Positions 9,282 through 64,000 of a DNA stretch of 64,000 bases are shown one piece after another. The notes below the pieces were generated by a model. It was not told the origin of the DNA. It was given only the letters and a program-made list of their open reading frames with translations, and ran no database searches. Source of the stretch: Gammaproteobacteria bacterium (GTDB lineage: Bacteria; Pseudomonadota; Gammaproteobacteria; Steroidobacterales; Steroidobacteraceae); assembly GCA_025358295.1 (NCBI GenBank), contig JANYJY010000001.1, positions 62,001 through 126,000 of the forward strand, in the 5' to 3' direction. The stretch's first letter is position 1. Each line of letters starts with the position of its first letter. The position numbers were made by a program, and so were the translations under genes.

Positions 9282-9287
9282 TAAACC

Positions 9288-10019: not shown

Positions 10020-10093
10020 CGACGGTCGCCGGCCGTTTGCAGCTGTTTTTTGCGTGTCGCCAGCCTCACTCCCCAGTGGCCTTCGAATCCGAA

Positions 10094-46030: not shown

Positions 46031-46038
46031 CTCTCCCC

Positions 46039-47451
46039 CTAGTACCGATACTGATCGACTTTGTACGGACCCTGTTTTTCGACGCCGATGTAGCGCGCCT
46101 GCGTGTCCGTCAGTTCGGTCAGTTGAGCAGCCAACTTGGACAGCTGCAGACGAGCCACTTTCTCATCGAGATGCTTGGGCAGCACATACACGCCGACCGG
46201 ATATTTCTTGGTGTTGGCGAAGAGTTCGATCTGCGCCAGCACTTGGTTCGCGAACGAGGAACTCATGACGTAGGAGGGATGTCCCGTGCCACAGCCCAAA
46301 TTCACCAAGCGACCCTCGGCGAGCAGGATGATCCGCTTGCCGTCGGGAAATATCACATGATCGACCTGCGGCTTGATGTTGTCCCAGGCGTACTGCCGTA
46401 GAGACGCCACTTCGATTTCATTGTCGAAATGCCCGATGTTGCACACGATGGCCTGATCCTTCATGCGCTTCATGTGATCATGGGTTATCACGTGAAAATT
46501 GCCGGTGGCGGAGACGAATATGTCGGCCTTGTCCGCGGCATATTCCATGGTCACGACGCGATAGCCTTCCATCGCTGCCTGCAATGCGCAGATCGGATCA
46601 ATCTCGGTGACCCACACCTGCGCCGACAGGGCACGCAGAGCCTGGGCTGAACCCTTGCCCACGTCGCCGTAACCGCAGACCAAGGCGACCTTGCCGGCGA
46701 TCATCACATCGGTAGCCCGCTTGATGGCGTCCACCAGGGATTCGCGGCAACCGTACAAATTGTCGAATTTGGACTTGGTGACCGAATCGTTGACATTGAA
46801 TGCCGGGAAGGCCAGTTGCCCGTCCTTGGCCATTTGATACAGGCGTTTGACGCCGGTGGTCGTCTCCTCGGTCACGCCCTTGATCTTCGCGAGCCGGGTT
46901 GAATACCACTTCGGGTCGACGTGCAGCTTGGCCTTGATGGCGGCGTACAGACACTCCTCTTCCTCATTGCTCGCCCGGGCGATCAGCGATGCGTCCTTTT
47001 CCGCCCTGGCACCCAGATGCAACAACAGCGTGGCATCGCCACCGTCGTCCAGGATCATGTTCGTGTGCCCGCCGTCCGGCCATTCGAAAATACGATGCGT
47101 GTAGTCCCAGTACTCGGCCAGCGACTCGCCCTTGATTGCGAATACCGGCGTGCCGCCGGCGGCAATGGCCGCGGCCGCATGGTCCTGGGTCGAATAAATA
47201 TTGCACGACGCCCAGCGCACCTGCGCGCCCAGGGCATTCAAGGTCTCGATCAAGACCGCCGTTTGAATGGTCATGTGCAGGGAGCCGGTGATGCGCGCAC
47301 CGCGCAGGGGCTGCTGCGATGCGAATTCATGGCGGATCGCCATCAGGCCGGGCATTTCCGTTTCCGCGATTCTGATTTCCTTGCGGCCCCAGTCCGCCAG
47401 ACTCAAATCCTTGACGAGAAAATCGTTACTTTGTTTGATTGCTGCATTCAT
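46039..47451 (-). CDS. ahcY: Adenosylhomocysteinase
   Basis: The 470-residue protein has the NAD-binding motif [16 protein letters not shown] near residue 265 and the C-terminal tail ending [10 protein letters not shown], invariant in the family (Lys and Tyr bind NAD of the partner subunit). It splits S-adenosylhomocysteine to homocysteine and adenosine, relieving inhibition of methyltransferases. It lies 26 bp after metK. Length and motifs are full, with no sign of damage. Confidence 0.97.
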
Positions 47452-47477
47452 TGGTCAATACTCCTTGTCGGTGCGCC

Positions 47478-48650
47478 TTAGGCGGCGCGCGTCGCTTTAA
47501 ATTCGGCGGCGAGCGTGCTCGCCTTGTCGGTGCGTTCCCAGCTGAACTCTGCTTCTTTGCGGCCGAAGTGCCCGTAGGAAGCTGTCATTTGATAGATCGG
47601 ACGCGCCAGATCCAGCATTTCGCGCAGCCCGAACGGTGTGAGATCGAAATGCGCGCGCACCAGCTGCGTCAAACGCGTGTCGGGCAATTTGCCAGTGCCG
47701 AAAGTCTCTACCATGATGGAGGTGGGCTCAGCCACGCCGATGGCATAGGAGAGCTGCACTTCGCAGCGCTCGGCCAAGCCCGCGGCGACGATGTTCTTGG
47801 CCACATAGCGCGCCGCATAGGCCGCCGACCGATCGACCTTGGACGGATCCTTGCCTGAGAACGCGCCGCCGCCATGGCGCGCGAATCCACCGTAGGTATC
47901 CACGATGATCTTGCGTCCCGTTAGGCCGCAATCGCCGACCGGGCCGCCGATGACGAACCGGCCGGTCGGATTGATGTGGTACTTGGTGCGTTTGTCGATC
48001 CATTTTTTGGGCAGTACCGGCTTGAGGATTTCCTCCATCACCGCTTCGCGCAATTGCTTGGTGCTAATACTGTCTTCATGCTGGGTCGACAGGACCACCG
48101 CTTCGAGTCCCACCGGCTTGTCGTTCTCATAGCGCAGGGTCACCTGGCTCTTGGCGTCCGGGCGCAGCCAGGGCAGCTTGCCGCTCTTGCGCACCTGCGC
48201 CTGGCGCTTCACCAGGCGATGCGCGAGGGTGATAGGGGCCGGCATCAGCACATCGGTTTCGTTGGTGGCGTAGCCGAACATCAGTCCCTGATCGCCCGCG
48301 CCTTGCTTGCGCTCATTCTTGCGGTCCACGCCCTGGGCGATGTCGGGCGACTGCTTGCCGATAATATTGAGCACACCGCAGCTGGCGCCGTCGAACCCCA
48401 TGTCCGAGGTGTTGTAACCGATGTCGAGTACGGTCTTGCGCACAATGGCTTCTACGTCCACCCACGCACTGGTGGTGACCTCGCCGGCCACGATAACCAC
48501 ACCGGTTTTGACCATGGTTTCACAGGCCACCCGACCCTTAGGGTCGGCCGCCAGAATGGCGTCCAGGACCGCGTCCGAGATCTGATCGGCTACCTTGTCG
48601 GGATGGCCTTCGGAGACCGATTCCGAGGTAAATGAGAAGCTTCTGCTCAT
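47478..48650 (-). CDS. metK: S-adenosylmethionine synthetase
   Basis: The 390-residue protein has the ATP/methionine motifs [16 protein letters not shown] near residue 15 and the [16 protein letters not shown] loop. It makes SAM from methionine and ATP. It is upstream of ahcY and downstream of a PfkB kinase gene in one leftward run, so the cluster makes SAM and recycles its product. No SAM riboswitch is seen in the 18-bp gap upstream. Confidence 0.97.
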
Positions 48651-48668
48651 AACTTGAGTTCCTTGCGC

Positions 48669-49619
48669 CTAGCCAAAATTATCCCGGAAGCGGCGATCGA
48701 ATTCCTCCCGGGTAAAACTGTGATTCTGCGGTCCGCGCGATTCGATCTTGATCGCGCCCATCAGGGATGCCGTTCGACCCGTGGTCGGCCAGTCTAACCC
48801 CCGCAACAGGCCGTGAATTAGACCAGCCCGATAGGCATCCCCGCAACCCGTGGGATCCACCACCGCCTTCGGCTGGGCGCAGGGCACATTTAGCGTTTGT
48901 CCCCGGGTGTGGATGACCGAGCCCTCAGCGCCCCGCGTGATCACCAGGGCATCGACCTGAGCCGTGATATCGCTCACTGAATAGCCGGTTCTTTCCTGCA
49001 ATAAGCCCCATTCATAGTCGTTGACCGCCACCCAGCGAGCCTGTCCGATGAAGGTTTTGAGCTCCTCGCCGCCGAACATGGGCAGGCCCTGACCGGGGTC
49101 GAATATGAACGGGATCTTGGCCGCCGCAAATTGCGCCGCGTGGGCAATCATGGCGTCTCGCCCGTCCGGTGCCACGATGCCAAGGCCGATCCCCGGTCCG
49201 GCGTCGGACACCGTGTTCAGGTGCGCATGCTGCATTGCTCCGGGGTGGAAGGCGGTGATCTGATTGTCATCCAGATCGGTGGTGATGAAGGCCTGGGCGG
49301 TAAAGGTGCCGTTGACGACCTTGATGTGATCGACAGGGATGCCCTGTGCATGCATACGCTCGCGGTAGGGGCCGAAATCGTCCCCCGCGGTGGCCATGGG
49401 CACACCCCGATCGCCCAACAGATGCAGGCTGTACGCGATATTCGTGGCACAACCGCCGAATTCGCGGCGCATTTCGGGCACCAGGAAGGACACATTCAAG
49501 ATATGAATCTTGTCCGGCAGGATGTGCGATTTAAATCGGTCTTGAAACAGCAATATCGTGTCGTAAGCCACGGAGCCGCAAATCAAGGCGGCTTGTCCAC
49601 CCAAGCGATCCTGCACCAT
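48669..49619 (-). CDS. PfkB-family kinase, probable adenosine kinase
   Basis: The 316-residue protein has the PfkB signatures: GGCATNIAYSLHLLG near residue 54 and DPTGCGDAYRAGLIHG near 258, with the catalytic Asp in GCGD. Because it leads the metK-ahcY run, adenosine is the likely substrate: it would remove the adenosine made by AhcY. The family also includes ribokinase and other sugar kinases. ATG 49619 fits the usual N-terminus; a longer frame upstream lacks support. Confidence 0.9.
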   Translation of the reverse strand: MVQDRLGGQAALICGSVAYDTILLFQDRFKSHILPDKIHILNVSFLVPEMRREFGGCATNIAYSLHLLGDRGVPMATAGDDFGPYRERMHAQGIPVDHIKVVNGTFTAQAFITTDLDDNQITAFHPGAMQHAHLNTVSDAGPGIGLGIVAPDGRDAMIAHAAQFAAAKIPFIFDPGQGLPMFGGEELKTFIGQARWVAVNDYEWGLLQERTGYSVSDITAQVDALVITRGAEGSVIHTRGQTLNVPCAQPKAVVDPTGCGDAYRAGLIHGLLRGLDWPTTGRTASLMGAIKIESRGPQNHSFTREEFDRRFRDNFG

Positions 49620-49800
49620 CCACTCATCCTGGAGTAAAACGCCTATTCTACAAGTAAATCCCGTAGAGCCGCTGTAGCGAATCGCGACCTGTAGCAGCCC
49701 GATCGTGCCGCCAGGCCCCGCGACGCGAAATAATTGCAACCATGCCCCGGTCTTATCGGGCAGGTAGGCTTTGTAAGTTGTTCAACCGAAGGAGAGCACG

Positions 49801-50064
49801 ATGATCAAGACCAGCGCGGCCGTGACCGCCATCAGCAGCCTGTTAACTCTGGGGGCGGCCGCTTTCGCGACACCGGCGTTTGCCGCCGACAAACCCGAGA
49901 TGGAAAAATGCTACGGCGTCGTGAAAGCCGGCAAGAACGACTGTGCGGGTCCCGCCCATGCCTGTGCCGGACAAGCCACGACGGACTCCGGAGCCAAGGA
50001 ATTCGTCGCACTGCCCAAGGGCACCTGCGCGCGGCTTTCCGGCGGCAGCCTGGCGCCGAAATAG
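49801..50064 (+). CDS. bufA1: BufA1-type bufferin precursor (DUF2282)
   Basis: The 87-residue protein has a signal peptide (VTAISSLLTLGAAAFATPAFA) and a mature peptide with four Cys: EKCYGVVKAGKNDC, then AHAC and GTCARL. This is the bufferin pattern; the peptide is modified by the BufB/BufC pair into a metal-binding product (copper for known cases). AAGGAG at 49790-49795 supports the start. The next three genes are BufB, BufC and DoxX, the standard order. Confidence 0.93.
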   Translation: MIKTSAAVTAISSLLTLGAAAFATPAFAADKPEMEKCYGVVKAGKNDCAGPAHACAGQATTDSGAKEFVALPKGTCARLSGGSLAPK

Positions 50065-50075
50065 GCGTCGAATCG

Positions 50076-50948
50076 GTGACGGATAACCCCGCTCGCCGAA
50101 AGCCTCACGGTCCGATGCCGGCTCGCGCCGGCATCGGACTGCGGGCTCAACACCATCTGCAAGTCATCGCCGAATCGCCCGACGTGGCCTGGTTCGAAGC
50201 GCACACCGAGAATTACTTTGCCGACGGCGGCGCGCATGTCGAGGCCCTAGTGCATATCCGCGAGCGCTACCCCCTGTCGCTGCATGGCGTCGGCCTGTCG
50301 TTGGGTTCGGCCGATGAAATCAACCTGCCGCACATGCAACGGGTGCGCAGCGCGATGCAGCGCTTTGAGCCGACGCTCGTCTCCGAGCATCTGTCATGGA
50401 TCTCGGTGGATGGCCGCTTCGCCAACGACCTTTTGCCGCTGCCCTACACCGACGAGGCGTTGCGGCATGTGAGCACACGCATCTCGCAGGCGCAGGATTT
50501 TCTAGGCCGGCAAATACTTATTGAGAATGTGTCGAGCTACCTGCAGTTCGACTGCTCACGCATGCCCGAGTGGGAATTTCTCGCCGGGGTCGCCGCGGAG
50601 TCGGGCTGTGGAATCTTGCTGGATCTGAATAACATCTACGTCGCCGCGTGCAACGGCGGCTATGAACCCCTGTGCTACTTGAATGCCATAGATTCCGGCG
50701 CGGTCCAAGAGATCCATTTGGCCGGGCACGACAGAGTGGCGATCGAGGGTGTGCAATTGCTCATCGACACGCACGGCTCGCCGGTGTGCGATGCCGTGTG
50801 GGACCTGTATGCGGCGGCGCTGCGGCGATTCGGCGATGTGCCGACCTTGATCGAATGGGACACGAACATTCCGACACTCGAGATACTGACAGCCGAGGCC
50901 GCCAAGGCGGATCGACTGCGGGCGGACGCGCATGCTCTCGCTGCATGA
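50076..50948 (+). CDS. bufB: BufB-type multinuclear iron enzyme (DUF692)
   Basis: The protein (290 residues from GTG 50076; ATG 50115 would give 277) is a DUF692 member: RAGIGLRAQHHLQVIAE, then HTENYFADGG with metal ligands, SLHGVGLSLGSAD, LVSEHLSW and LIENVSSYL, with His/Glu/Asp residues spread over a TIM barrel. The family uses a mixed-valent iron centre to make oxazolone-type bonds on Cys in the precursor. The start is not settled because neither candidate has a strong ribosome site. Confidence 0.91.
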   Translation: MTDNPARRKPHGPMPARAGIGLRAQHHLQVIAESPDVAWFEAHTENYFADGGAHVEALVHIRERYPLSLHGVGLSLGSADEINLPHMQRVRSAMQRFEPTLVSEHLSWISVDGRFANDLLPLPYTDEALRHVSTRISQAQDFLGRQILIENVSSYLQFDCSRMPEWEFLAGVAAESGCGILLDLNNIYVAACNGGYEPLCYLNAIDSGAVQEIHLAGHDRVAIEGVQLLIDTHGSPVCDAVWDLYAAALRRFGDVPTLIEWDTNIPTLEILTAEAAKADRLRADAHALAA

Positions 50949-51678
50949 ACTGCAGGTGAAAGTTTTACGCGCCGTCCTCGACGGCAAGCCGGATGCTGCC
51001 TGCGGCATCACGCCCCCCCACGCCGTGGGCGTTTATGCCCGCACGGCGCGGGGCAATTTCATCGACAGCTTGAAATCAAGCTATCCGGCGATTCAACGCT
51101 TGGTCGGTGAAGAGTATTTCGAGCAAACGGCGCGCCACTTCCATGCGCGCCATCCTTCCCGTTCGGGAGATCTGCAACCGGCGGGAAGGGACTTTGCGCA
51201 TGCGCTTCGCGAACTGCACGGCGAGGATGAATTTCGCTACCTCAGCGATGTGGCGCGTTTTGAATGGCTGGTGCAGGAAGCGCTCCTCGCCGCCGACCAC
51301 GGACCGCTCGATCTTGCGCGGTTGGCGGCGCAGGCACCGAGCCGCCACGAGGAGTTGCGATTCAAGCTGCATCCCTCCGCCCGCCTGTTCGAATCGCCGT
51401 TTCCCTGCCGGGCCATTTGGCAGGCCAATGTCGCTAGCGACGCGGACCCGGCCGTGATCGACCTCGATGGCGGAGCCGACCGACTGCTCATGGTCAGAAC
51501 ATGCGGGCAATTGAATTTTCACGACTTGAGCCAGGGTGAGCGTGATTTTCTGCTCGAGCTTAAGGCCGGCCGCTCCCTGTCGGCGGCGATCGACTGCGCC
51601 GCCGGCCCCCTGCCCTTCGATCCCGCAGCCGCCTTGCAGCGCTTCGTAGCCTGCGGCGTCGTCGTCGATTTTCAATGA
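50932..51678 (+). CDS. bufC: BufC-type partner protein (DUF2063)
   Basis: The 248-residue protein has the DUF2063 N-terminus (LHELQVKVLRAVLDG, then VYARTARGNFIDSLKSSYPA) with its Leu/Tyr-rich helices and a C-terminal domain that recruits the precursor. It overlaps bufB by 17 bases. Together with BufB it forms the maturation enzyme for the BufA peptide. Confidence 0.92.
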   Translation: MLSLHELQVKVLRAVLDGKPDAACGITPPHAVGVYARTARGNFIDSLKSSYPAIQRLVGEEYFEQTARHFHARHPSRSGDLQPAGRDFAHALRELHGEDEFRYLSDVARFEWLVQEALLAADHGPLDLARLAAQAPSRHEELRFKLHPSARLFESPFPCRAIWQANVASDADPAVIDLDGGADRLLMVRTCGQLNFHDLSQGERDFLLELKAGRSLSAAIDCAAGPLPFDPAAALQRFVACGVVVDFQ

Positions 51679-51708
51679 CGCACTGAAACAACATCAAGGA
51701 CTCGCTTC

Positions 51709-52170
51709 ATGCCCATGCTCGACAAGATTTTAGGCGTCGATAGGTTCGCGGCGCGGCTGCTCAATCCGCTGCAATCCCTGTTCGCGCTGGGTGCCCGGCT
51801 GTACGTGAGCTGGCAATTTCTGAAATCGGGTTATCTTAAAGTGACTTCCTGGGACAGCACCCTTTACCTGTTCGAGAACGAATACCACACGCCCCTACTG
51901 TCCCCGCATGCGGCCGCAGTCGCCGGCTCCTTCGGCGAATTATTCTTTCCAACCTTGCTGGTGCTTGGCCTCATGGGGCGGCTGAGCGCCATCGGCCTGT
52001 TCGCGGTCAATGCCATGGCGGTCATCTCGTATGCGCACGTGCTGCTGGCGGAGGGCTCCGAGGCCGCACTCGGGCAACATGTGTTGTGGGGTACACTGTT
52101 GGTGTTTCTCATTATCTACGGCCCCGGTAAATACTCGCTGGATCATCTGCTGAACAGGTCACGCCTCTGA
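51709..52170 (+). CDS. DoxX family membrane protein
   Basis: The 153-residue protein has four membrane helices. The family pattern RLYVSWQFLKSGYLKVTSWDS, with HTPLLSPHAAAVAG and the LGLMGRLSAIGLFAVNAM helix, is clear. It is the fourth gene of the bufferin operon, where it often occurs. Its role there is not settled. The stop TGA shares bases with the CTG start of the next gene. Confidence 0.92.
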   Translation: MPMLDKILGVDRFAARLLNPLQSLFALGARLYVSWQFLKSGYLKVTSWDSTLYLFENEYHTPLLSPHAAAVAGSFGELFFPTLLVLGLMGRLSAIGLFAVNAMAVISYAHVLLAEGSEAALGQHVLWGTLLVFLIIYGPGKYSLDHLLNRSRL

Positions 52171-54161
52171 CGCTCGGCCGCGATAGCTGCGGCTCTTGGG
52201 ATAGCGCCTGCCGCTATGAATGGCTGGTGACGAACGGCCTTGGCGGTTTTGCCTGCGGCACGGTGTCCGGCGCCAACACCCGCCGCTACCATGGATTTCT
52301 GATTGCGAGTCTTAAGCCACCGGTGGAGCGCACATTGCTGGTGGCAAAGATCGAGCTCGCCGTGCACTACCTCGGCGTAGAGACCGATCTGTCCGCCAAC
52401 GAATTCCTGGGCGGGGCACTCAGCGGCCAGGGATTCGTGCACCTGGAATCCTTCGCCGTGCAAGACGGCATCCCGACGTGGCGTTATGCCGTGGCGGACG
52501 CGTTGCTGGAGCAGAAGATTTTCATGGCGCCCGGCGCGAACACCAGCTATCTGCGCCTCGAATTGCTGCGAGCCTCGGCGCCTTTGCGCCTCACGTTGAA
52601 GCCCCTGCTCGCGTACCGGGACTACCACTCGCACAACCGCGGCGCCCAACCCTTCCAACTCGAGGCGGACGCGGCAGAATGCCGCATCCAGGCATTCGCG
52701 GGCGCAAGGCCCTACCGGTTGTCGATCACGGCGGGCCGATTCAGCGCGGCCCCCGAATGGTATTGGAATTTCTGGCATCGAGTGGAAGCGACGCGAGGCC
52801 TCGACGCCGCGGAAGATCTGTTCATGCCCGGCACCTTCAGCGTCGATTTGAGCCTCAAGTCGCCGGTGCACCTGCTGGCAACCGCCGAGCCGTCGGCTCC
52901 GGCGCCCGGTGCGGAGGTTCTGCAGGGCCTGAAGAGAAGTTCGCAGCAATTGACCGCCGCATTGCCCAATACCGCACCGGCCTGGATTCATTCGCTGGCC
53001 CAGGCGTCGGATCAATTCATCGTCCATCGGGACGCAGTGGACACTGCCGGCGAAGGCGGCGCTGCTGCCTGCAGCGTCATCGCGGGGTACCCCTGGTTCA
53101 CCGATTGGGGCCGCGACACCATGATCGCACTACCGGGGCTCGCGACCGCGCTGCGCCGCTACGATGTCGCGGCGGGTATTCTGCAAACCTTCGCCGGCTT
53201 CGTCGATCGCGGCATGCTGCCGAATTGTTTTCCCGAGCGCGGCGCAGCGCCGCAATACAACACTGCGGACGCCACTTTGTGGATGTTCCACGCGCTCGAC
53301 GATTACTTGCAAGCCAGGCGTGATCCGGCGCTCACACAGAAAATATTCCCCATTCTGATGAGCATCATTCACGCGCATGTGGACGGCACCCGCTACGGGA
53401 TTCACGTGGATCCGGCTGACGGACTGCTGTGCGCCGGTGAGGCCGGAACTCAATTGACTTGGATGGACGCGAAGCACGGCGATCGCGTATTCACGCCGAG
53501 GATCGGCAAGCCGGTCGAAATCAATGCGCTGTGGCTGAACGCCTTGGACGTGGCCATGCGGCTCGCGGCGCGCGTGCATGATCTCCCGCAGAAGCGCTTC
53601 TGCCAAAGCTTGCACGCCCGCGCCGGCGCGAGTTTCGGCCGCTTCTGGAACCAGCAGCGATGCTGTTTGTACGATGTGCTCGATGTCGAAGGGGGATGCA
53701 CCGCTGACGACAGCATTCGGCCGAATCAGATCTTGGCCGTCTCTCTGCCCTACTGCGTCCTGGACCCGGGGCAAATGCGCGCGGTGGTGGACTGCTGCGC
53801 CCGGGAATTGCTGACCAGCCATGGACTTCGCAGTCTCGGCCCTCAAGAACCGGGCTACATCGGCCGCTATAAGGGCGATGCCTCACAACGCGACGCGGCT
53901 TACCACATGGGCACAGTCTGGGGCTGGCTGCTGGGACCCTTCGCCCGCGCGCACTATCGTGTGTACGGCGATGCCCGGCTGGCGCAATCATTTCTCGAAC
54001 CCGTGGCGCAGCAGCTGCACAGCGCCTGCCTGGGAACGCTGAGCGAGATATTTGATGGTGATGCACCTCACAATGCCCACGGCTGTTTCGCGCAAGCTTG
54101 GAGCGTCGCTGAGATACTGCGTTCTTGGCTGTACCTCGACCGCAAGATCGCGACCCTCTAA
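52167..54161 (+). CDS. Glycogen debranching enzyme-like amylo-1,6-glucosidase, apparent CTG start
   Basis: The protein (664 residues) has the debranching domain order: an N-terminal domain with EWLVTNGLGGFACGTVSGAN and RRYHGFLI, then the GH133-type (alpha/alpha)6 domain with GYPWFTDWGRDTMIALPGLA and its catalytic acid. The N-terminal segment TLGRDSCGSWDSACRYEWL is conserved but has no ATG, GTG or TTG before it; CTG at 52167, in a CTGA overlap with the doxX stop, is the best start, with AGG at 52156. GTG 52227 would delete the conserved start. It would act on alpha-1,6 branches of glycogen or related glucan. Confidence 0.88.
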   Translation: MTLGRDSCGSWDSACRYEWLVTNGLGGFACGTVSGANTRRYHGFLIASLKPPVERTLLVAKIELAVHYLGVETDLSANEFLGGALSGQGFVHLESFAVQDGIPTWRYAVADALLEQKIFMAPGANTSYLRLELLRASAPLRLTLKPLLAYRDYHSHNRGAQPFQLEADAAECRIQAFAGARPYRLSITAGRFSAAPEWYWNFWHRVEATRGLDAAEDLFMPGTFSVDLSLKSPVHLLATAEPSAPAPGAEVLQGLKRSSQQLTAALPNTAPAWIHSLAQASDQFIVHRDAVDTAGEGGAAACSVIAGYPWFTDWGRDTMIALPGLATALRRYDVAAGILQTFAGFVDRGMLPNCFPERGAAPQYNTADATLWMFHALDDYLQARRDPALTQKIFPILMSIIHAHVDGTRYGIHVDPADGLLCAGEAGTQLTWMDAKHGDRVFTPRIGKPVEINALWLNALDVAMRLAARVHDLPQKRFCQSLHARAGASFGRFWNQQRCCLYDVLDVEGGCTADDSIRPNQILAVSLPYCVLDPGQMRAVVDCCARELLTSHGLRSLGPQEPGYIGRYKGDASQRDAAYHMGTVWGWLLGPFARAHYRVYGDARLAQSFLEPVAQQLHSACLGTLSEIFDGDAPHNAHGCFAQAWSVAEILRSWLYLDRKIATL

Positions 54162-54170
54162 GGAAGAAGA

Positions 54171-56798
54171 ATGAACACCGAGCGCGAGCGCCTGCTCGCC
54201 AACGTGCCGGGCCACGATGGCTGGCATCACTGGGGTCCCTACCTCAGTGAACGCCAGTGGGGCACGGTCCGCGAAGACTACAGTCCCGGCGGCAACGCCT
54301 GGGAATACTTTCCTCATGAACACGCGCGCAGCCGAGCCTATCGCTGGGGCGAGGACGGCATTGCCGGTATCTCCGATGCCGACCAACAGGTATGTCTGTC
54401 GCTGGCGATGTGGAACGGCCACGATTCGATTTTGAAGGAGCGTTTGTTCGGACTCACCAATGCGCAAGGCAATCACGGCGAGGACGTGAAGGAGCATTAT
54501 TTCTATTTGGATGCCACCCCCACGCATTCCTATTTAAAGATGCTCTACAAGTATCCGCATGGCGCCTTTCCCTATGCGGACCTGATCGAGGAGAACGCCC
54601 GCCGCGGCGCGGAGCTCCCGGAATACGAACTTCTGGACACCGGCATTTTTGAGGAGAATCGCTACTTCGACGTGTTCGTCGAATACGCGCAAGCCGAGCC
54701 CGGCGATATGCTGATGAAGATCACCGTCTGGAATCGCGGCGCCAGAGCTGCGATGCTGCATATGATCCCGCAGCTGGTGCTGCGCAATACATGGACTTGG
54801 GAGCCGGGCTCGGGCAAGCCGCGTTTGTTCGCGGCGGGTGGCGGTGCCGTCGGCATCGAACCGGCGGACTTGGGCATGAGCCGGTTGTACTTTGACGGCA
54901 ATGCCGACGTCTTGTTCACGGAAAATGAGTCCAATGCGCCGCTGCTCTGGAATTTGGGCGCCCCGGGCTACTTCAAGGATGGATTCCACGAACGCATCGT
55001 CGGCGGCCGCACCGACCGGGTTAACCCGGCGCATGTCGGCACCAAGGCAGGCGTGTGGTTTCAGTCGACCATCCCCGGCGGCGCGAGGCAGGAATACCGT
55101 CTGCGCCTGTCACGCCGCACCCTCGATGCACCCTTCGATGAATTCGAATCCTGCTTAGGGTTGCGGCGTTCGGAAGCCGATCGGTACTACGCCGATCTGC
55201 AGAAAGACATGGCCTCGGCGGACGAGCGCGTGGTGCAGCGGCAGGCTTTCGCCGGACTGATTTGGAGCAAGCAGTACTACTGCCTGGATGTTTCGCGCTG
55301 GCTCAAGGGCGATCCGGGCCAGTTCGCACCGCCGGAGGCGCGGCTGCACGGCCGCAACATTGAATGGCGAAATCTCAACAACGCCGACATCATTTCCATG
55401 CCAGACAAATGGGAATATCCCTGGTACGCATCCTGGGACCTGGCCTTTCACTGCATCCCCTTCGCCTTGATCGATGCGGAGTTCGCCAAGCACCAACTCG
55501 TGCTGCTGACGCGCGAATGGTACATGCACCCCAACGGCCAAATTCCCGCCTACGAGTGGGCCTTCAGCGACGTCAATCCGCCGGTGCACGCCTGGGCGGC
55601 CTGGCGCGTGTACCAGATCGATCGCAAACAGAACGGCGGCAAGGGCGACCTCGAGTTTCTCGAGCGCGTATTTCATAAATTGATGCTGAACTTCACTTGG
55701 TGGGTCAATCGCAAAGACAACCTCGGCAGGAATATCTTTCAGGGCGGTTTTTTAGGCCTGGACAATATCGGCGTGTTCGATCGCAGTGCGCAGCTGCCCA
55801 CCGGCGGCTACATCAATCAATCGGACGGCACCAGCTGGATGGCGATGTATTCGCTGAATTTGATGCGCATCGCGCTGGAGCTCGCCGAACACAATCATGT
55901 GTATGAGGACATCGCCAGCAAATTCTTCGAACACTTCTTGAATATCGCCGAGGCCATGAGCTGCATGTACAGCGCCGACATCGGCCTGTGGGACGAAGAG
56001 GACCAGTTTTTCTACGACGTATTGAATCTACCCGACAACCAGAAAATACGGCTGCGGGTGCGCTCCATGGTGGGGCTGATCCCGCTGTTCGCGGTCGAGA
56101 CCCTGGAGCCGGAATTGCTGGAGAAGCTGCCGGGATTCAGAAAGCGACTGGAATGGTTTCTGAGCCATCGCCCCGATCTTGCGGATCTGGTGTCTCACTG
56201 GCAGTCGCCGGGGCGTGGCCAGAGACGGTTGTTATCGCTGCTGCGCGGCCACCGCATGAAAAAACTCCTGCGGCGCATGTTGGATGAGTCCGAATTTCTC
56301 TCCGACTATGGCGTGCGGGCAGTGTCGCGTGCGCACCTCGACCAGCCCTTCGTGCTCAAAGTCGGCGATGTGGATCAGTCCGTCTGCTATGCGCCGGCCG
56401 AATCCGAATCGCGGCAATTCGGCGGCAATTCCAACTGGCGCGGCCCGATTTGGTTTCCGCTCAATTTCCTCATCGTCGAGTCCCTGCAGAAATTTCATCA
56501 TTACTACGGCGATGACTTCAAAGTGGAATATCCGACGGGCTCGGGGCGCTTTCTGACCCTCGATGAAGTCGCCACCGAGTTGTCGCACCGCCTGTCGCGC
56601 ATATTCCTGAAGGATGCCAACGGCGAACGCGCCGTGCTGCGCCACCAGCCCGCGTTGCAAACCGACCCGCACTACGCGGATTGCATCCCGTTCTACGAGT
56701 ACTTTCACGGCGACTCCGGCCGCGGCGTCGGCGCGTCGCACCAGTCGGGATGGACGTCGCTGATCGCCAAACTGCTCATGCCGCGGGCACATGACTGA
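54171..56798 (+). CDS. GH63-like glucosidase/mannosylglycerate hydrolase-type protein
   Basis: The 875-residue protein has [20 protein letters not shown] at the N-terminus and the (alpha/alpha)6-barrel segments [20 protein letters not shown] and [14 protein letters not shown], with candidate acid residues Asp in SWDLAFH and Glu in the C-terminal [15 protein letters not shown] region. It fits the GH63 family of alpha-glucosidases and mannosylglycerate hydrolases. It lies 9 bp after the debranching gene, so the two probably form one operon working on an alpha-glucan or compatible solute. GGAAGAAG precedes the ATG. Confidence 0.9.
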
Positions 56799-56892
56799 CC
56801 GCCCTACTCGCCCGGCGCGTTCCCGACCCCGCTGATTCCGTGCTAGGTTGCTTTCTATGCGCCGGACTCGGCAGATAGCGAAACGGGGTGGC

Positions 56893-58131
56893 ATGGTGAC
56901 GAATTCGCGAAAGCATCGGATCAGCTGGGCGCGTTACGCGTCCGCGATCCTGGCACTGGCGTCGCTAGGATCGGCGCATGCCCAGGAAATGCCCAAATCC
57001 GTGGCACAGGCCGAAGCCATGGAAACGGCCGATCGCCTGCCGCTCACCGATTTTTACTCCACGCCGGACAATCTTGCGGCGTCCAAGCCGGGTGCTCTCT
57101 TGCGCAAGGAGGCATTCACCGGCTATTCGCTGCCGAAGGGCGCCTCCGCCGTAAGAATTCTTTATCACTCCCTGGATGCCACCGCCCACGATGTCGTCAC
57201 CTCGGGCGTGGTGCTCATACCGGCAGGAACGGCGCCGCCCGGCGGCTGGCCCCTCATCGCCTGGGCTCACGGCACCTCCGGCGTCGCCCGGTTGTGCGCG
57301 CCCTCCGCCATGAAAGACGTCTACTACGGCGAGGAGGGCCTGATGCCCATGGTTGCCGCCGGCTTCGCGGTGGTGGCGACCGACTATCACGGCCTCGGCA
57401 CCGAAGGGGCGCACCAGTATGTGAATAAGGTCGCGCAGGCTAACGATGTCCTCTACTCGATTCCGGCTGCGCGGGCGGCGGTGCCCAGCCTGGGATCGAA
57501 GTGGGTCGTCGACGGACATTCGCAAGGCGGCCTCGCCGCCTTTGGGGTGGCCGAGGCGCAATATGATCTTAAGGATCCCGATTACCTGGGTGCGGTGTCG
57601 GTGGCCGGCGTCGCCCGGGAAGTGGATTTTTTCGCCCATCTGGCCGATACCCGTGGAGTTGGTTTTTATCTAGCCTTCATGGCCGCCGGCATCCACGCAC
57701 GCTATCCGGAATTCAATCCACGCGAATTATTATCGGACAGCGTGCTGCAACACTATCCGGACGTCACCACCAAGGGTTGCTTCTTCTATGCGTATGCAAC
57801 CTACGCCGACGCCCCCGGCTCGCAATTGCGCCATGACTGGCAGAAAAGCGCGTGGATACATCATTTCTTCGAAGGCAATGTGGTGGGCGCCAAACCCATC
57901 GGCGGTCCCTTGTTCGTGATCGCCGGCGAGGCAGATCAAACCGTTCCCCTCGCCGGAGTGCGCGCCGCCGTTAAGCAGCTGTGCGCCGCCCAAACGAACG
58001 TGCGGTTCCGCAGCTATCCCGGGCTCGACCACGATCCGGTCATGGAGCGATCGACGCCGGAGCAGCTCAAATGGATCCGGGCCCGATTCGCGGGTAAATC
58101 GTCCAGCTCGAATTGCCCCAAGGGCGGTTAA
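56893..58131 (+). CDS. Secreted lipase-like alpha/beta hydrolase
   Basis: The protein (412 residues) has a signal peptide (WARYASAILALASLGSAHA) and the alpha/beta-hydrolase core. The nucleophile elbow is GHSQGG (VDGHSQGGLAAF), the acid is Asp in GEADQTVP, and the His lies in YPGLDHDPV. It resembles secretory lipases of the LIP family. ATG 56893 is chosen because GGGG lies 5 bases before it. The last codons, SSSNCPKGG, are repeated 2.4 kb downstream at the end of the truncated frame near 60.5 kb. Confidence 0.88.
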   Translation: MVTNSRKHRISWARYASAILALASLGSAHAQEMPKSVAQAEAMETADRLPLTDFYSTPDNLAASKPGALLRKEAFTGYSLPKGASAVRILYHSLDATAHDVVTSGVVLIPAGTAPPGGWPLIAWAHGTSGVARLCAPSAMKDVYYGEEGLMPMVAAGFAVVATDYHGLGTEGAHQYVNKVAQANDVLYSIPAARAAVPSLGSKWVVDGHSQGGLAAFGVAEAQYDLKDPDYLGAVSVAGVAREVDFFAHLADTRGVGFYLAFMAAGIHARYPEFNPRELLSDSVLQHYPDVTTKGCFFYAYATYADAPGSQLRHDWQKSAWIHHFFEGNVVGAKPIGGPLFVIAGEADQTVPLAGVRAAVKQLCAAQTNVRFRSYPGLDHDPVMERSTPEQLKWIRARFAGKSSSSNCPKGG

Positions 58132-58167
58132 GGCCGGCCGCGAGCGGCACCCCTGAGCCTGGTTTGA
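58091..58167. repeat. ~77-bp direct repeat, copy 1
   Basis: This segment covers the end of the lipase gene and the start of the gap after it. It matches 60488-60568 with 25 identical bases in a row at 58103-58127 and about 80 percent identity outside. In the minus direction both copies encode QTRLR-x-AARG-x-P before a stop; in copy 2 that is the real end of the AraC gene. Confidence 0.8.
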
Positions 58168-58213
58168 CAGGCCACCCTTCCTCGGTGACAGCGGTGTTCG
58201 CTGAGCCGCGCCG

Positions 58214-58345
58214 CTATATTCGGTGGCCGCTAGTGGAAGCGATGTCGTCGATGATCTTCCCCGCCCCGCCGCAGTACTCGCACACGGTGACGTCGATCGA
58301 GAAAACCCGTTCCAATCACTGCGCGTGCGGTGCGGTGCGGATCTA
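58214..58345 (-). pseudogene. Decayed IS91-type transposase C-terminal fragment
   Basis: On the minus strand a frame reads HAQ, a TGA stop at 58318-58316, then LERVFSIDVTVCEYCGGAGK and II. The pattern WAQ-x-LKRVF-x-ID-x-x-x-C-x-x-CGG is the C-terminal zinc-finger region of IS91-family transposases. Arg before Leu has become the stop (CGA to TGA), and the frame after about 58240 no longer matches. Only the fragment remains, so it cannot move on its own. Confidence 0.7.
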
Positions 58346-58362
58346 TGGACGATTGCAATACC

Positions 58363-58435
58363 TACAATCAGCGTTAAAAAAACCGCGATCAATCCCTAAT
58401 CTTCGGTGCTACCCTTTGTCACTACCTTACGAGGG
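58363..58435 (+). promoter_or_regulatory. Possible -10 box and ribosome site of kinase gene
   Basis: TACAAT at 58363-58368 fits a -10 box; no -35 is convincing. GAGGG at 58431-58435 lies 5 bases before ATG 58441 and supports that start. Confidence 0.35.
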
Positions 58436-58440
58436 ATGAA

Positions 58441-60384
58441 ATGACTGCAGCGCACAACATTGCGGGTACGAAAACAGCCAAACGTCGCCGGCCGAGCGCG
58501 GACGGCGGGGAACTGGTTGTCGCGTGGATGGAAGATCTGTCGCGCGATCGTTGCACCGCGCAGGAATTTTTGTCTGCGATGTTCGATCACTTCCGCGAAA
58601 AAATCGACGGGCATTGGGAAGTTCTGTCGTTGCTCGACCAGTACTACCGCCGCGCCAAGATAAAGCCCGGGATTTATCGAATTGTTAAATCCCGCGTCGA
58701 TGATTGGATACTCCATGGGGAGGCAGACTCGCCGTCCGTGACTGCACCCACGACGTCGGCCGCGGCCTCTACTCCTGCTGCGCCAAAAAACACAGTCTCG
58801 TCATTCGCAAATGTGCCGCATAAGGCGGCGCCGACGGCACCCGGCGGAGTTCGGCGTGTAGCCGTCGGCGACGTACTGCGCAGCCGGTATCGGGTCATAG
58901 GAGTATTGGGACGCGGCGGGATGAGCACGGTATACGCAGCGGCGGATAAGTATCGACTCGACTTGCTTCCCGCCGGACAGCACATCGCCGTCAAAGTGCT
59001 GCACACGATGGTTACCGAGCGCGAAGAACTGCTCTGCGAGCTGCAACGCGAGTTTCAACATCTACAATCGCTGTCGCATCCCAACATCATCCGCGTGCAC
59101 GAATTCGATCGCGACGGCGACACTGCTTTTTTCACCATGGAATTGTTGAACGGCGTACTGCTCAGCCGCTTGATCAATGCCCGGCGGTCGGCAGCGTTGC
59201 CTCGAGCCCACTCACTTTCCATCATCCGCGATACGGGCGCGGCACTGGCGTACGCGCATTCGCGCGGCGTCGTGCATGGCGACGTCAACCCGCAAAACAT
59301 CTTCATTACCAATGAGGGCGAATTGCGCGTGCTGGATTTCGGCGCTGCACACTCGATGCGGCGCACTGGCTGGTCCGCAAACGATGATTCGTCGTTCGCG
59401 ATACCCGTCGCTACTCCCGGCTATGCCAGCTGCCAAGTGCTCGAAGGCCAGCGTCCCGATGCACGCGACGACACATTTTCCTTTGCCTGTGTCATCTACC
59501 TGTTGTTGTCGGGGAAACACCCCTTCCCCGGCTTAAGCGCCGTCGAGGCTCGGAACAAGAAAATCCGCACCCCACGGCCTGTTGGGCTGGAGGGTTCGCA
59601 ATGGCGAGTGCTGCGCGAAGGCTTGAATTGGGATCGCGCCCGACGTCCCTCCGATGTGCAGAACTGGCTGGAGAGGCTCAAGTTGCTTGGCGCGGCGCCC
59701 CACCTGCCGCCTCTGCCGCATTTGCTCACGAGTCCCACGCCCCGAAGCAGCAAAGCACTACTGTCGGCGGCCGCGGTGCTATTGCTTGCCCTGCTCGCAG
59801 CCGGTGGCTATTGGGTCGCCGCGATTCATCATCCGCTGTCCGACGCTTCGCACGTGACATCCACAGCGCCGGTAGTACCCGCGGTGACTCCGCCCCTGGT
59901 TGCGGTCCCCGCTGAGCTGCCGTCTCCGACGTCGATGCCTGCCGCCGTCCCTGGCTCCAGTCAGCCGCCCGTCGCGCGCGCGATAGAGGTTCCCGCCCCA
60001 CCCGACGCAGACACGTCCACCTCGGCGCAGGTCGCAGTCGCTGGCAAGGTGCGCATAGAACTCGTCGCGGACACGGTCGATGTGGCCCCCACTGAGAGAA
60101 CGGCGCACATTGTTGTGCACCGCAAAGGCAGTCTGCGCGAGGCGGCCAGCTTTAACTGGTGGACCGAATCGGGTACTGCAAAGCCCGGCGTGGATTTTGT
60201 CCCCGCCATGCCGCACACCACGGCGATCGAAAAAGGCAGCAGTAGCGTCACTTTGGACGTCGCTGTTTCCGACAGGCCGCGCCACCAGCCCAAGAGTTTC
60301 TATGTGGTGATCGATAAAGTGGAATCGGGACCCGCACTGGGTGCTCGCACGTTGACCATGGTGACGATACTGCCGCCCGATTAG
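58441..60384 (+). CDS. Membrane Ser/Thr protein kinase with C-terminal Calx-beta-like domain
   Basis: The 647-residue protein has an N-terminal helical region (about 25-95), a kinase domain (about 147-415), one membrane helix (439-462) and an outer domain. The kinase has the G-loop LGRGGMSTVY, Lys185 in HIAVKVL, Glu in the C-helix, the loop HGDVNPQN with Asp281 and Asn286, and DFG at 299-301; HGD replaces the usual HRD. Residues about 535-645 look like a Calx-beta domain (SGTAKPGVDFVP). It probably senses an outer signal and phosphorylates cytoplasmic proteins. It is flanked by repeats and an IS91 fragment. Confidence 0.92.
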   Translation: MTAAHNIAGTKTAKRRRPSADGGELVVAWMEDLSRDRCTAQEFLSAMFDHFREKIDGHWEVLSLLDQYYRRAKIKPGIYRIVKSRVDDWILHGEADSPSVTAPTTSAAASTPAAPKNTVSSFANVPHKAAPTAPGGVRRVAVGDVLRSRYRVIGVLGRGGMSTVYAAADKYRLDLLPAGQHIAVKVLHTMVTEREELLCELQREFQHLQSLSHPNIIRVHEFDRDGDTAFFTMELLNGVLLSRLINARRSAALPRAHSLSIIRDTGAALAYAHSRGVVHGDVNPQNIFITNEGELRVLDFGAAHSMRRTGWSANDDSSFAIPVATPGYASCQVLEGQRPDARDDTFSFACVIYLLLSGKHPFPGLSAVEARNKKIRTPRPVGLEGSQWRVLREGLNWDRARRPSDVQNWLERLKLLGAAPHLPPLPHLLTSPTPRSSKALLSAAAVLLLALLAAGGYWVAAIHHPLSDASHVTSTAPVVPAVTPPLVAVPAELPSPTSMPAAVPGSSQPPVARAIEVPAPPDADTSTSAQVAVAGKVRIELVADTVDVAPTERTAHIVVHRKGSLREAASFNWWTESGTAKPGVDFVPAMPHTTAIEKGSSSVTLDVAVSDRPRHQPKSFYVVIDKVESGPALGARTLTMVTILPPD

Positions 60385-60413
60385 TTCGCCCAAAGCCGGC
60401 CACGAGGATGACC

Positions 60414-60494
60414 ATGAAAATTAGTGCACAGAACTATCGAGTGCGGGAAGGCGAGAAAGTAACGCTGCGATTTTCTGTGGCGCGCGACGCGGGT
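60414..60494 (+). pseudogene. Truncated 26-codon reading frame after kinase gene
   Basis: ATG 60414 has GAGGA 5 bases upstream, and the frame reads ISAQNYRVREGEKVTLRFSV before a TAG at 60492-60494. The segment resembles the first strands of an outer beta-sandwich domain. The stop falls a few bases inside the second repeat copy, so the rest of the gene was probably lost at the junction. Confidence 0.5.
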
Positions 60495-60568
60495 AGAGCT
60501 TCCAGCTCGAATTGCCCCAAGGGCGGCGATCAAGGCTGGCCGCGAGCGGCGCACCTGAGCCGGGTTTG
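60488..60568. repeat. ~77-bp direct repeat, copy 2
   Basis: Partner of 58091-58167. Its right half encodes the last residues of the AraC gene and its left half is a copy of the lipase gene end, so the two copies bracket the kinase block. Confidence 0.8.
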
Positions 60569-61501
60569 AGACGGCAGCTCGCTAAACAGCGAGCGATAAT
60601 GGCTTGAAAACCGGCTCCAATGCCAGACCCCGCGGCGGGCGGCGATGACCCCGATCGACGTGTCGGCGCTCTGTTCGGCCAGCAAGTCGCGGCGGATCTG
60701 GTTGAGCTGCAAGGTGCGGACGAAATTGCCGGGGCCCATGTCGATGACGGATCGGAACACGGACTCGAGCGATCGCCGGCTCACGCCGACTTCCGCGCAG
60801 AGCGCAACGATGGCTATACCGTCCTCCAGGTTGTCGTGGATGTAATCGCACGCTCTTCTGAAAACCAGCATGGTCCGCGCGTTGCTGTAGCGCCTGCGTC
60901 GCCCCAGACCGCGTTCGCCCGAGGAATTGGCTATTTGCCATACTAAATCGCCCAAGGAGGATTTGAATCCCTTGACCGCGGCGGGGTAGCTCGACGGATA
61001 TTCGAGAGTGGTAAAGGCGGTCAATCCCGAATGCACCACTTCTCGAAGTTGTCGCGACCTCGCCGGGTCCGCCAGGATCTGCACCGTGCGCATCTCGGAT
61101 CCATCGTCGGGCAACAGGCTGCAGGAGATGTCCATGCAACAGATACTCATACCTGCCGCAGTTTTCCCCTCCAGAGCATGGCTCTCCGGGCATAATGCGA
61201 CGCTGTTTTGCGAGAATGTCGCGGCGTTCAGCGCGCAGGGTGGCGATGTCTCGCTCAGCAGGCAGGCGGCATAGCGCCCGGCCGGAGTGGATGCCCTTTG
61301 CGCGAGCTCACGGTTAGCCATCTCGAAATGGATGCCCAGGTCGTCGCCAAGATCGAAGGAGCGGAAGCGCCCCTCGAACGGGCCGGGGCTCAGCTGCTGG
61401 TATTGCTGATCGTAGCCATGCAATTGGGCCGCTTGCACATCGATGTCATGGAAATGCCCGCCGGATTCCCAAGCTTGCCGTTTTACATTTGGGTCAGTCA
61501 T
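60530..61501 (-). CDS. AraC family transcriptional regulator
   Basis: The 323-residue protein has a C-terminal double helix-turn-helix: DGIAIVALCAEVGVSRRSLE, then FVRTLQLNQIRRDLL and the second motif with SIGVIAARRGVWHWSRFSSH and YRSLFSELPS. The N-terminal part (about 1-190) would hold the effector or dimer domain; it resembles cupin-type regulators only weakly. ATG 61501 is chosen; 16 extra codons upstream look non-coding. It diverges from the TonB-dependent receptor gene, which it may control. Confidence 0.9.
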   Translation of the reverse strand: MTDPNVKRQAWESGGHFHDIDVQAAQLHGYDQQYQQLSPGPFEGRFRSFDLGDDLGIHFEMANRELAQRASTPAGRYAACLLSETSPPCALNAATFSQNSVALCPESHALEGKTAAGMSICCMDISCSLLPDDGSEMRTVQILADPARSRQLREVVHSGLTAFTTLEYPSSYPAAVKGFKSSLGDLVWQIANSSGERGLGRRRRYSNARTMLVFRRACDYIHDNLEDGIAIVALCAEVGVSRRSLESVFRSVIDMGPGNFVRTLQLNQIRRDLLAEQSADTSIGVIAARRGVWHWSRFSSHYRSLFSELPSQTRLRCAARGQP

Positions 61502-61660
61502 TGGAAGGGCATCATAGCAAATGGGCCCCCAGCGCCCTCGCCTGCGCACATTTGCGCAAAGCGGATAACGCTTGGCTTGCCGCAGCGGCTATTTTAGATT
61601 TCACGCCGCCGCCGGCCGCCGGCGCGGACGAATACGTACAGGTTCTTGAGGAGAGAAGGG

Positions 61661-63919
61661 ATGAAGAGACGCGCATGCCCCCTGTTGGCGGTGGCACCTT
61701 GGATATTTTGCGTGCAGACGGCGATTGCCGATGCCCCGGCCGATTCGGATCAAATCCCCGAAATCGTCGTCACTGCGCAGAAGCGCGTTGAGAACCTGCA
61801 AAACGTGCCGGTGTCGATCACCACCTTCGGCTCCGCTGAACTACGGAATCGAGCCGTAGAAAGCTTCATCGACTACGCAACGTCGGTGCCCAATCTGGGG
61901 TTTGGCGCCTCCGGGGACGGCGCCGCAAATTCGCGCACAATTTCGATCCGCGGCGTCAGCGGCGACAACACCACCGGATTCTATTTGGACGAGACACCGC
62001 TGCCGGACTCGCTCGATCCGAGAGTCGTCGATATCGATCGCATCGAGGTGCTGCGCGGTCCGCAAGGAACTCTGTACGGCGCGCGTTCCATGGGCGGCAC
62101 GGTTCGACTCCTGACCAACCAGCCGGACCCCAATCAATTCTCGGCCGCGGCCCATGCCGGCCTCTCCTCGACCGACCACACCGTTGCGCCCAACTACGTG
62201 GCCGACGGCGTGGTCAACTTGCCGCTGATCCAGGACACGCTGGCGCTGCGCATGGTCGGCTTCTTCGATCGGGAAGCAGGCTACTACACGCGGGAATTTC
62301 CGACGACGCCGGGAGGCAGCACGTTGTCGACGGTGAAAGATGTCGGACGTTCGGTGGTCCAGGGAGGTTCGCTGTCGCTGCTGTGGAAAGTCAATGACGC
62401 ACTGACCGTAACGCCGCGCATTCTGCATCAGGAAAACGCTTACAACGGCCTGCCGTTCGCCGACGGCACGGCGAGCGATTTTCGTCCCACGAATTTCGTG
62501 CAGAGGCGTTTGTTCGATGATACGGAGGGCGGCAGCGACCGTTGGACGCTGTACTCGCTTGGCGTTCACTACTCGCTGCCCTTGGGCGAACTGGTCTCCT
62601 CCACGTCCTACTTCGACCGCGAAATCATCGAGCGCGAAGATGAATCGGATGTGGTCTCGATGTTCTTCTTCACGCCCGCGGGCCTGGCGCCCGTGGAATC
62701 CCAGATCACCGAAATCAAGCCGCTGCACCGCTTCGTCCAGGAGCTGCGCTTCGCCTCGCAGCTGCAGGGCCCCTGGCAATTCGTGCTCGGTGCCTACTTC
62801 TCGTCCACGAACGGGCAATTTACTCCCGGACTGTACCCGCACACCGTAGTGCCCGGTCTGACCGCGGTGTCGGGATATCCGGGGGATCTGTTTTTCTACC
62901 AAAACTATCCGAGCACCATCCGCGAGCCGGCGGCCTTCGGAGAGCTCTCGTATCAGGCCACGTCGCAGTTGAAATTGACGGCCGGCGCTCGCTGGTATGA
63001 GATCAAATCAACGGCAAGCGGCACCGAACAGGGCGCCGCCGTCGGGACCATAGTCACCGATACGGCCGGCTCCTTGACCGAGGTGGGAGTCAATCCGAAG
63101 GTGCAGGCAGACTATCAGCTCAACGCCGATGCCATGGTGTACGCGACCGCCGCGAAGGGATTCCGTCCCGGCGGCATCGTCCCCACGGTGCCGTCCGCCG
63201 CGGCGCTGGGTTGCCCCGCGCAGCTGGCGGCGCTCGGTTTGACCACGGCGCAGACGCACCAGTACCAATCCGATAGTTTGTGGAACTACGAATTGGGTGC
63301 GAAAACATCCTGGCTGGACAACCGCCTGACCGTCAATGCGGATGTTTTCTACATCGACTGGAGCAACATCCAGCAGCAAATATTGCTGGCCTGCGGCTTT
63401 CAGTTTCGCACCAATGCGGGTGCAGCCAAGAGCGAGGGCGGCGAATTGGAAGTTCATGCGCGCCCGTTGCACGGCTTGGATATCTCGGGCGGCGTCGGTT
63501 ATCAGCACGCCGTGATCACCAAAGCCGGCGCGGGCGGGGCGGCCTCGCCATTGCAGCCCGGCGACCGTGTGTACCAAGTGCCGGACTGGACCGCCAACAC
63601 CTCGGTCACCTATTCCACCGCGCTCAATGCACGCCTCAATCTCGTGAGCAACCTGTCGTATTCCTATGTCGGCGACAGCAAGAGCGCAAACAACGATCCG
63701 TTCAATCCACGCACCCGCGCGCCCTACGCGCTGTTGGATGCGCGCCTCGGGCTGGCCCTTACCGGCTATGAGATTGCCCTTGTCGGGAAGAATCTGACCA
63801 ACGAACATGCCAATCTCTCGGACAATCGCTCCATTGCCGTCGAACTCCCGGGACGTCCGCGCATCGTGACCAATCAGCCCATCACCATCGGCATCGAAGT
63901 GCGAGCAACCTTCCATTGA
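61661..63919 (+). CDS. TonB-dependent outer-membrane receptor
   Basis: The 752-residue protein has a signal peptide (CPLLAVAPWIFCVQTAIA), a TonB box near IPEIVVTAQKR, a plug domain (about 40-150; DRIEVLRGPQGTLYGARSMG) and a 22-strand barrel with the C-terminal LPGRPRIVTNQPITIGIEV ending in an aromatic residue region. It imports a substrate, perhaps an iron chelate or sugar, using TonB energy. GAGGAGAGAAGGG (61648-61660) supports ATG 61661. A lipoprotein gene follows with a TTGA overlap. Confidence 0.94.
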   Translation: MKRRACPLLAVAPWIFCVQTAIADAPADSDQIPEIVVTAQKRVENLQNVPVSITTFGSAELRNRAVESFIDYATSVPNLGFGASGDGAANSRTISIRGVSGDNTTGFYLDETPLPDSLDPRVVDIDRIEVLRGPQGTLYGARSMGGTVRLLTNQPDPNQFSAAAHAGLSSTDHTVAPNYVADGVVNLPLIQDTLALRMVGFFDREAGYYTREFPTTPGGSTLSTVKDVGRSVVQGGSLSLLWKVNDALTVTPRILHQENAYNGLPFADGTASDFRPTNFVQRRLFDDTEGGSDRWTLYSLGVHYSLPLGELVSSTSYFDREIIEREDESDVVSMFFFTPAGLAPVESQITEIKPLHRFVQELRFASQLQGPWQFVLGAYFSSTNGQFTPGLYPHTVVPGLTAVSGYPGDLFFYQNYPSTIREPAAFGELSYQATSQLKLTAGARWYEIKSTASGTEQGAAVGTIVTDTAGSLTEVGVNPKVQADYQLNADAMVYATAAKGFRPGGIVPTVPSAAALGCPAQLAALGLTTAQTHQYQSDSLWNYELGAKTSWLDNRLTVNADVFYIDWSNIQQQILLACGFQFRTNAGAAKSEGGELEVHARPLHGLDISGGVGYQHAVITKAGAGGAASPLQPGDRVYQVPDWTANTSVTYSTALNARLNLVSNLSYSYVGDSKSANNDPFNPRTRAPYALLDARLGLALTGYEIALVGKNLTNEHANLSDNRSIAVELPGRPRIVTNQPITIGIEVRATFH

Positions 63920-64000
63920 AACGCACCCCGTCAGAAATACCTCCCCTTTGCACCGCCGGCGCATTGTTAGCGGCGGCGTTCGGCCTGCTGGCGGGTTGCC
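63916..64000 (+). CDS. Lipoprotein gene, partial (3' end outside window)
   Basis: From TTG 63916, sharing bases with the TonB-receptor stop (TTGA), 28 codons remain. They read KRTPSEIPPLCTAGALLAAA and end in a lipobox LLAGC at the window edge. This is a lipoprotein signal, so the gene probably encodes an outer- or inner-membrane lipoprotein working with the receptor. Nothing can be said of the mature part. Confidence 0.6.
   Translation, partial: MKRTPSEIPPLCTAGALLAAAFGLLAGC

Follow-up and report, generated by a model that had tools for sequence, protein, structure and literature searches.

How did a Hanks-type Ser/Thr kinase gene come to lie between two copies of a short segment that joins the ends of two other genes? 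The locus belongs to a 64,000-nucleotide stretch (the window) of a Steroidobacteraceae genome (assembly GCA_025358295.1, contig JANYJY010000001.1, positions 62,001–126,000), which carries a lipase gene, the kinase gene and an AraC-type regulator gene in succession. We denote this genome G000 and compared it with genomes of the same genus (G0xx; n = 23, G000 included) and with fetched loci (L0xx and L1xx); coordinates continuing past 64,000 are given in extended window numbering. We consider it likely that the locus records two insertions: the first formed a lipase–AraC junction, and the second brought into it a kinase fragment from a congeneric lineage near G017 and G013.

A lipase–AraC junction on both sides of the kinase

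The kinase gene is bracketed by a direct repeat, whose copies we call J1 and J2 (Table 1). Local alignment of the two gave 71 identical columns out of 79, with eight mismatches and one 3-base gap. The alignment score was 109, compared with at most 37 (median 22) for 479 control pairs, which were retained from 500 random same-size segment pairs drawn from the window after removal of those overlapping or too near each other. The original prediction had placed a repeat of ∼77 bp on either side of the kinase, at 58091–58167 and 60488–60568; the repeat is real, its match is far above chance, and those coordinates were right within 1–2 bases. Its edges are sharp, with an ungapped identity of 7/20 beyond the limits on either side, and the longest exact core common to both copies is 26 bases. 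A search of the whole genome with 58075–58180 returned two strong places only, J1 and J2 (next best, 24 bases, E 0.2), ruling out a genome-wide interspersed element. The 26-base core had zero exact matches in the genome_contigs collection, which possibly does not include G000 itself.

Each copy pairs one true gene end with an orphan copy of the other, exactly as had been claimed. The real lipase stop codon in J1 (58129–58131) overlaps the orphan AraC stop codon (58128–58130, minus strand), which is still in frame; J2 holds the real AraC stop codon (60530–60532) plus the orphan lipase end. The lipase part of the repeat is kept in the lipases of G021, G014, G017 and G013, with an 'SNC' motif shortly before the stop codon (by eye), and it is taken as native to J1 because the lipases of these relatives end at nearly the same point. 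The AraC part is native to J2 because the C terminus is conserved with the AraC of G021, matching it as far as 'LPSQTR' (by eye); a comparison of the tails showed that of G000 to be the shorter. Both copies hold both gene ends, and the fused lipase–AraC junction therefore predates the duplication and the kinase block. As read from the sequence, a tail-to-tail lipase–AraC junction came first and was then duplicated around a 2.32-kb kinase block. This composition, with both ancestral gene ends in each copy, supports the earlier proposal that the kinase block entered a convergent lipase–AraC junction and duplicated it.

Because the junction was duplicated, neither of the overlapping genes lost its end; an insert without duplication would have cut the lipase or the AraC gene. 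Of the 79 sites, eight differ between J1 and J2, a much smaller proportion than the synonymous differences (pS) of 0.37–0.63 that separate other genes from those of G014 and G021, so the duplication, dated here on a short and partly coding repeat, is probably younger than the splits from these two genomes.

An artefact of the draft assembly, a chimeric contig, deserves attention in a genome of 74 contigs that is 97.5% complete and 2.6% contaminated; a metagenome-assembled genome also matches its near relative G021. However, the two copies share an exact core of just 26 bases and differ at eight sites and by a gap, and the order of the relatives is preserved across the insert, from the lipase side to the methyltransferase/peroxiredoxin side. 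We regard such an artefact as highly improbable. Direct repeats at the block ends, together with a transposase remnant inside, also have the look of a mobile element carrying the kinase, with the 79-bp repeats as its ends. Yet both repeats are host gene ends conserved in relatives, they occur in two copies only in the genome and in none of the relatives' loci searched, and matches among 72,556 plasmid records never exceed 3% of the block; we find this explanation extremely improbable. Known plasmid cargo is likewise ruled out as an identity for the block, with two of these plasmid records matching, each across 3% of it.

Table 1. Coordinates of features at the lipase–kinase–AraC locus, in window numbering
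Feature	Coordinates	Strand	Remarks
Secretory-lipase-type hydrolase	56848..58131	+	427 amino acids from first TTG; Pfam PF03583 LIP, 1.7e-17; stop inside J1
Junction copy 1 (J1)	58089..58167	.	True lipase 3' end and orphan AraC 3' end
ISCR (IS91-type) transposase remnant	58217..58315	-	C-terminal end, left as an open stretch of 33 codons; 5' side towards kinase; between J1 and kinase upstream region
Kinase upstream region	58352..58440	+	Resembles DUF3501–kinase spacer of G017; blastn from 58398, extended to ~58352 by eye
Hanks-type Ser/Thr kinase	58441..60384	+	647 amino acids; PF00069, 1.1e-36
Right end of block	60385..60487	+	Short open stretch resembling the beginning of a Calx-beta domain (by eye), cut off by J2
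Junction copy 2 (J2)	60488..60569	.	Orphan lipase 3' end and true AraC 3' end
AraC-type regulator	60530..61501	-	Convergent with kinase; PF12833, 1.2e-14; 70% to G021
TonB-dependent receptor	61646..63919	+	Member of AraC–TonB–PQQ dehydrogenase module

Where related genomes carry lipase, AraC and kinase

The lipase, the AraC module and the kinase occupy separate places in related genomes. On the lipase side, 55000–58116 is collinear in one stretch with contigs of G017 and G013, at 79% DNA identity, and aligns in two stretches to G021 (55000–56799 and 56973–58119) and to G014 (55236–56796 and 56973–58116); 60559–63919 aligns to a different G021 contig from that matching the lipase side. The gene 3' of the lipase is a methyltransferase in G021, a convergent peroxiredoxin in G014 and G017, and a 160-amino-acid reading frame followed by the peroxiredoxin in G013. 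The methyltransferase (66208–67068) and peroxiredoxin (67074–67709, both in extended numbering) of G000 lie beyond the kinase, AraC, TonB receptor and pyrroloquinoline quinone (PQQ) dehydrogenase genes, ∼8–9 kb further on than in the relatives.

The AraC gene, the TonB receptor and a PQQ-dependent alcohol dehydrogenase form a module that runs over 60530–63919 and on to 66144 (extended numbering; L081), between the lipase and the methyltransferase, which are adjacent in G021. G021 apparently has two copies of this lipase–methyltransferase pair (L068 and L075, on contigs C119 and C125). All three module genes stand together in five of eight AraC loci of the genome_contigs collection (L099, from G021, and L100, L102, L103 and L104); of the rest, L101 has AraC and TonB, L105 has AraC only, and L106 gave zero match at E 1e-6. 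As a first step, the module would have been placed between the lipase and the downstream methyltransferase, so that the lipase and AraC genes came to converge and their stop codons to overlap. Within the fetched DNA, none of these eight AraC loci has a lipase or kinase match. Over flanks reaching ∼1.5 kb or as far as the contig extends, 18 lipase loci of relatives gave no kinase or AraC match, and neither lipase nor AraC was matched at any of 20 kinase loci (L010–L029, the first 20 of 29 fetched outside G000).

These surroundings bear on a Campbell-type integration, in which a circle bearing a junction copy beside the kinase underwent a single crossover with the chromosomal junction. Repeat–insert–repeat would result directly, and the 10% divergence of J1 and J2 would suit two diverged parent copies. 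Such an event would, however, need a donor with the junction, and none was seen: in G017 and G013, the nearest genomes for the kinase, the peroxiredoxin is downstream of the lipase; the AraC match in G017 is only partial (49%) and on another contig, and G013 has none at E 1e-20; and a search of the lipase and kinase loci at E 0.1 did not find the junction itself. We judge it very unlikely.

Relatives have the kinase next to DUF3501, an acyl-CoA synthetase or both. DUF3501 is present in 16 of the 23 genomes, G000 included, and a kinase follows it in G021, G014 and G017 but was not seen at the other 12 non-G000 loci, as far as their flanks reach. The kinase converges with an acyl-CoA synthetase in G014, G020 and G009; in G013, ∼1 kb of other sequence lies between its 3' side and the synthetase (L065, around 9163–10226). 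Among the 20 kinase loci examined, DUF3501 occurs at three and the synthetase at four. Related kinases stand in varied surroundings across genomes, and the gene may move often. In G000, contig C73 has DUF3501 and the synthetase as neighbours separated by 70 bp, and the kinase is absent there. The marker tree has G014 and G021 on one side of G000 and G017 on the other as its nearest relatives; all three have the kinase beside DUF3501, so that in G000 the native kinase would most simply have been lost or removed from this site.

Relationships of the kinase

The kinase is much closer to that of G017 than the other genes of the two genomes would lead one to expect. Identity to the G000 kinase domain is 83.5% for G017, 76.0% for G013 (262 amino acids), 65.6% for G021 and 65.1% for G014. 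The ratio of the G017 distance to the G014/G021 distance is 0.47 for the kinase domain (bootstrap 0.37–0.59) and 0.89–1.68 for 10 of 11 other genes: lipase 1.02, GH875 0.89, AGL644 1.06, peroxiredoxin 0.97, FeS 1.51, DUF3501 1.23, and 1.29, 1.68, 1.14 and 1.16 for four unnamed genes. A twelfth gene, rubrerythrin, is identical to that of G021, making its ratio unusable. With G013 in place of G017, the full kinase has a ratio of 0.83 (0.74–0.92), and 11 other genes span 0.80–2.21. The G017 distances thus show a clear anomaly, the G013 distances a weak one.

Trees agree in part. The set G000, G017 and G013 has support of 100/99 in the kinase tree, and an approximately unbiased (AU) test on the kinase rejects the clade G000+G014+G021 (p 0.0016). 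A concatenation of 11 marker genes from five genomes rejects both G000+G017 (p 6e-8) and G000+G013 (p 3e-8). The kinase has a synonymous difference of 0.50 from that of G017, a lower value than those of seven of nine other genes compared with G017; at this value the donor would be a relative of G017 rather than G017 itself.

Several observations weigh against a transfer into a preexisting junction. An empty junction, one copy without the kinase, was not found among the AraC-searched relatives, the eight genome_contigs AraC loci, or the lipase and kinase loci; the comparison with related genomes that the original prediction had proposed thus came back negative for the relatives searched. DoxX also has a low G017 ratio (0.59, 0.38–0.86; compared with G021 only), and the G013-based ratio of the kinase domain (0.70, 0.58–0.83) overlaps that of GH875 (0.80, 0.61–1.00), peroxiredoxin and others. 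At the DNA level, the kinase is 80% identical to that of G017 over 960 bp, about the same as other genes. G000+G017 alone is supported by only 78/39 in the kinase tree, a clade of G013 with G017 is not rejected by the kinase data (p 0.46 for 21 rows and 0.355 for 10), and the unrooted five-genome marker tree also has the split of G014+G021 from the rest (93/96). As a species marker, rpoB did not resolve the group, with zero match in G014 and G013. Given the unrejected G013+G017 clade and the unrooted marker tree, the branching of the trees cannot by itself decide the matter, and it is the distances that carry the argument.

Some observations speak for a relocation of the native kinase from the DUF3501/acyl-CoA synthetase locus (C73) to the lipase–AraC junction (contig C1) with no interspecies transfer: the kinase site of close relatives is empty in G000, the DNA identity to G017 is like that of other genes, and the G013+G017 clade is not rejected. 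On the other hand, the kinase protein is far nearer to G017 than to G014 and G021, which the old-site genes FeS (1.51) and DUF3501 (1.23) are not, and the kinase data reject the clade G000+G014+G021. Relocation therefore seems unlikely to us. The distance anomaly favours transfer from a congeneric lineage, and the kinase was probably transferred within the genus. Its earlier description as a candidate transferred gene is supported by gene distances and only partly by trees, which reject G000+G014+G021 but not the G013+G017 clade.

Make-up and joining of the insert

The inserted block spans 58168–60487. In the second step of the proposed course of events, a fragment of 2.32 kb from a congeneric lineage near G017/G013 would have entered the junction, leaving the 79-bp direct repeat and bringing with it an intact kinase gene preceded by its promoter region, the terminal part of an ISCR-type transposase and the opening bases of a further reading frame. 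The kinase consists of a kinase domain, a hydrophobic stretch (transmembrane-like, by eye) and a C-terminal Calx-beta-like domain (PF03160, 4.3e-5, at 24 bits under the Pfam cut-off of 27). The catalytic Lys, an HxD-type loop and DFG are present (by eye). The GC content of the gene is 0.616, and that of third positions 0.69 versus 0.73–0.77 in four neighbours, which is slightly low and not decisive. Stretch 60385–60487 had zero Pfam or NCBIfam match and nothing convincing in the fetched loci. A scan of 58050–60650 returned zero promoter-like and three terminator-like signals, against shuffled means of 0.7 and 2.7, and there is no transfer RNA at 45000–64000 that might have served as an insertion target.

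The transposase remnant corresponds to positions 450–477 of the 509 in the NCBIfam model of ISCR clade Ia (E 6.5e-6), far under the model cut-off, as expected of a fragment. It is 53% identical over 32 amino acids to plasmid IS91/ISVsa3-family transposases and is single-copy in the G000 genome. G000 has no intact HUH (Y2) transposase (PF04986, 0 matches), whereas eight of the 23 genus genomes have PF04986 matches. G016 has a 400-amino-acid open Y2 transposase frame (L122), and short IS91/ISCR-like pieces occur in other congeners, that in G005 (L129) resembling the remnant at 59% over 22 residues (E 0.014). No oriIS or terIS ends were identified when 58132–58220 and 58168–58260 were folded, with no reference end for comparison. 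The terIS end is described as holding the transposase promoter, with transposition ending there and neighbouring genes able to be carried (PMC13393415). Here the kinase is found 5' of the transposase remnant, and so its orientation fits a carrier role. An ISCR-type element is thus a possible vehicle of the kinase fragment, but most of the element is gone.

As in a target-site duplication, preexisting host sequence is directly repeated on either side of the insert. The order lipase–J–insert–J–AraC would result if a staggered break were filled in, or if replication switched template and restarted behind the point of exit. As the likeliest way of joining, at about even odds, we propose repair of a staggered double-strand break or a template switch in which replication resumed ∼79 bp behind the point of exit; an ISCR-type element may have carried the fragment earlier. 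That an ISCR-type rolling-circle element itself carried this chromosomal signalling kinase between congeners, and that its integration or the ensuing repair made the 79-bp repeat and spared both overlapping convergent genes, we think decidedly unlikely.

At the level of events the case is clear and well explained, and it is ordinary in kind: a gene insertion. As a record of past gene gain it is well resolved, since the places of related kinases, the lineage that this one resembles and the form of the target can be read from the DNA, and it illustrates that an insertion forming a duplication can enter overlapping convergent genes and leave both ends intact. The G000 kinase has the same layout as those of G017, G014, G013 and G021, as far as their contigs reach (by eye; that of G017 stops within the kinase gene), and differs in its place in the genome, where DUF3501 and the acyl-CoA synthetase are not its neighbours. 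The locus is like ISCR/IS91 rolling-circle elements in having a clade Ia remnant beside the kinase region, the kinase being 5' of the transposase, and unlike them in that only ∼33 codons of the 509-position model are left and element ends were not identified; ISCR/IS91 elements are also not known to produce target duplications of 79 bp. With non-homologous insertions that duplicate their target, through staggered-break repair or template switching, it shares sharp ends and a host direct repeat on both sides. At 79 bp the repeat is long for a target duplication, which sets it apart from typical insertions of that type and poses a modest question on how such inserts are joined.

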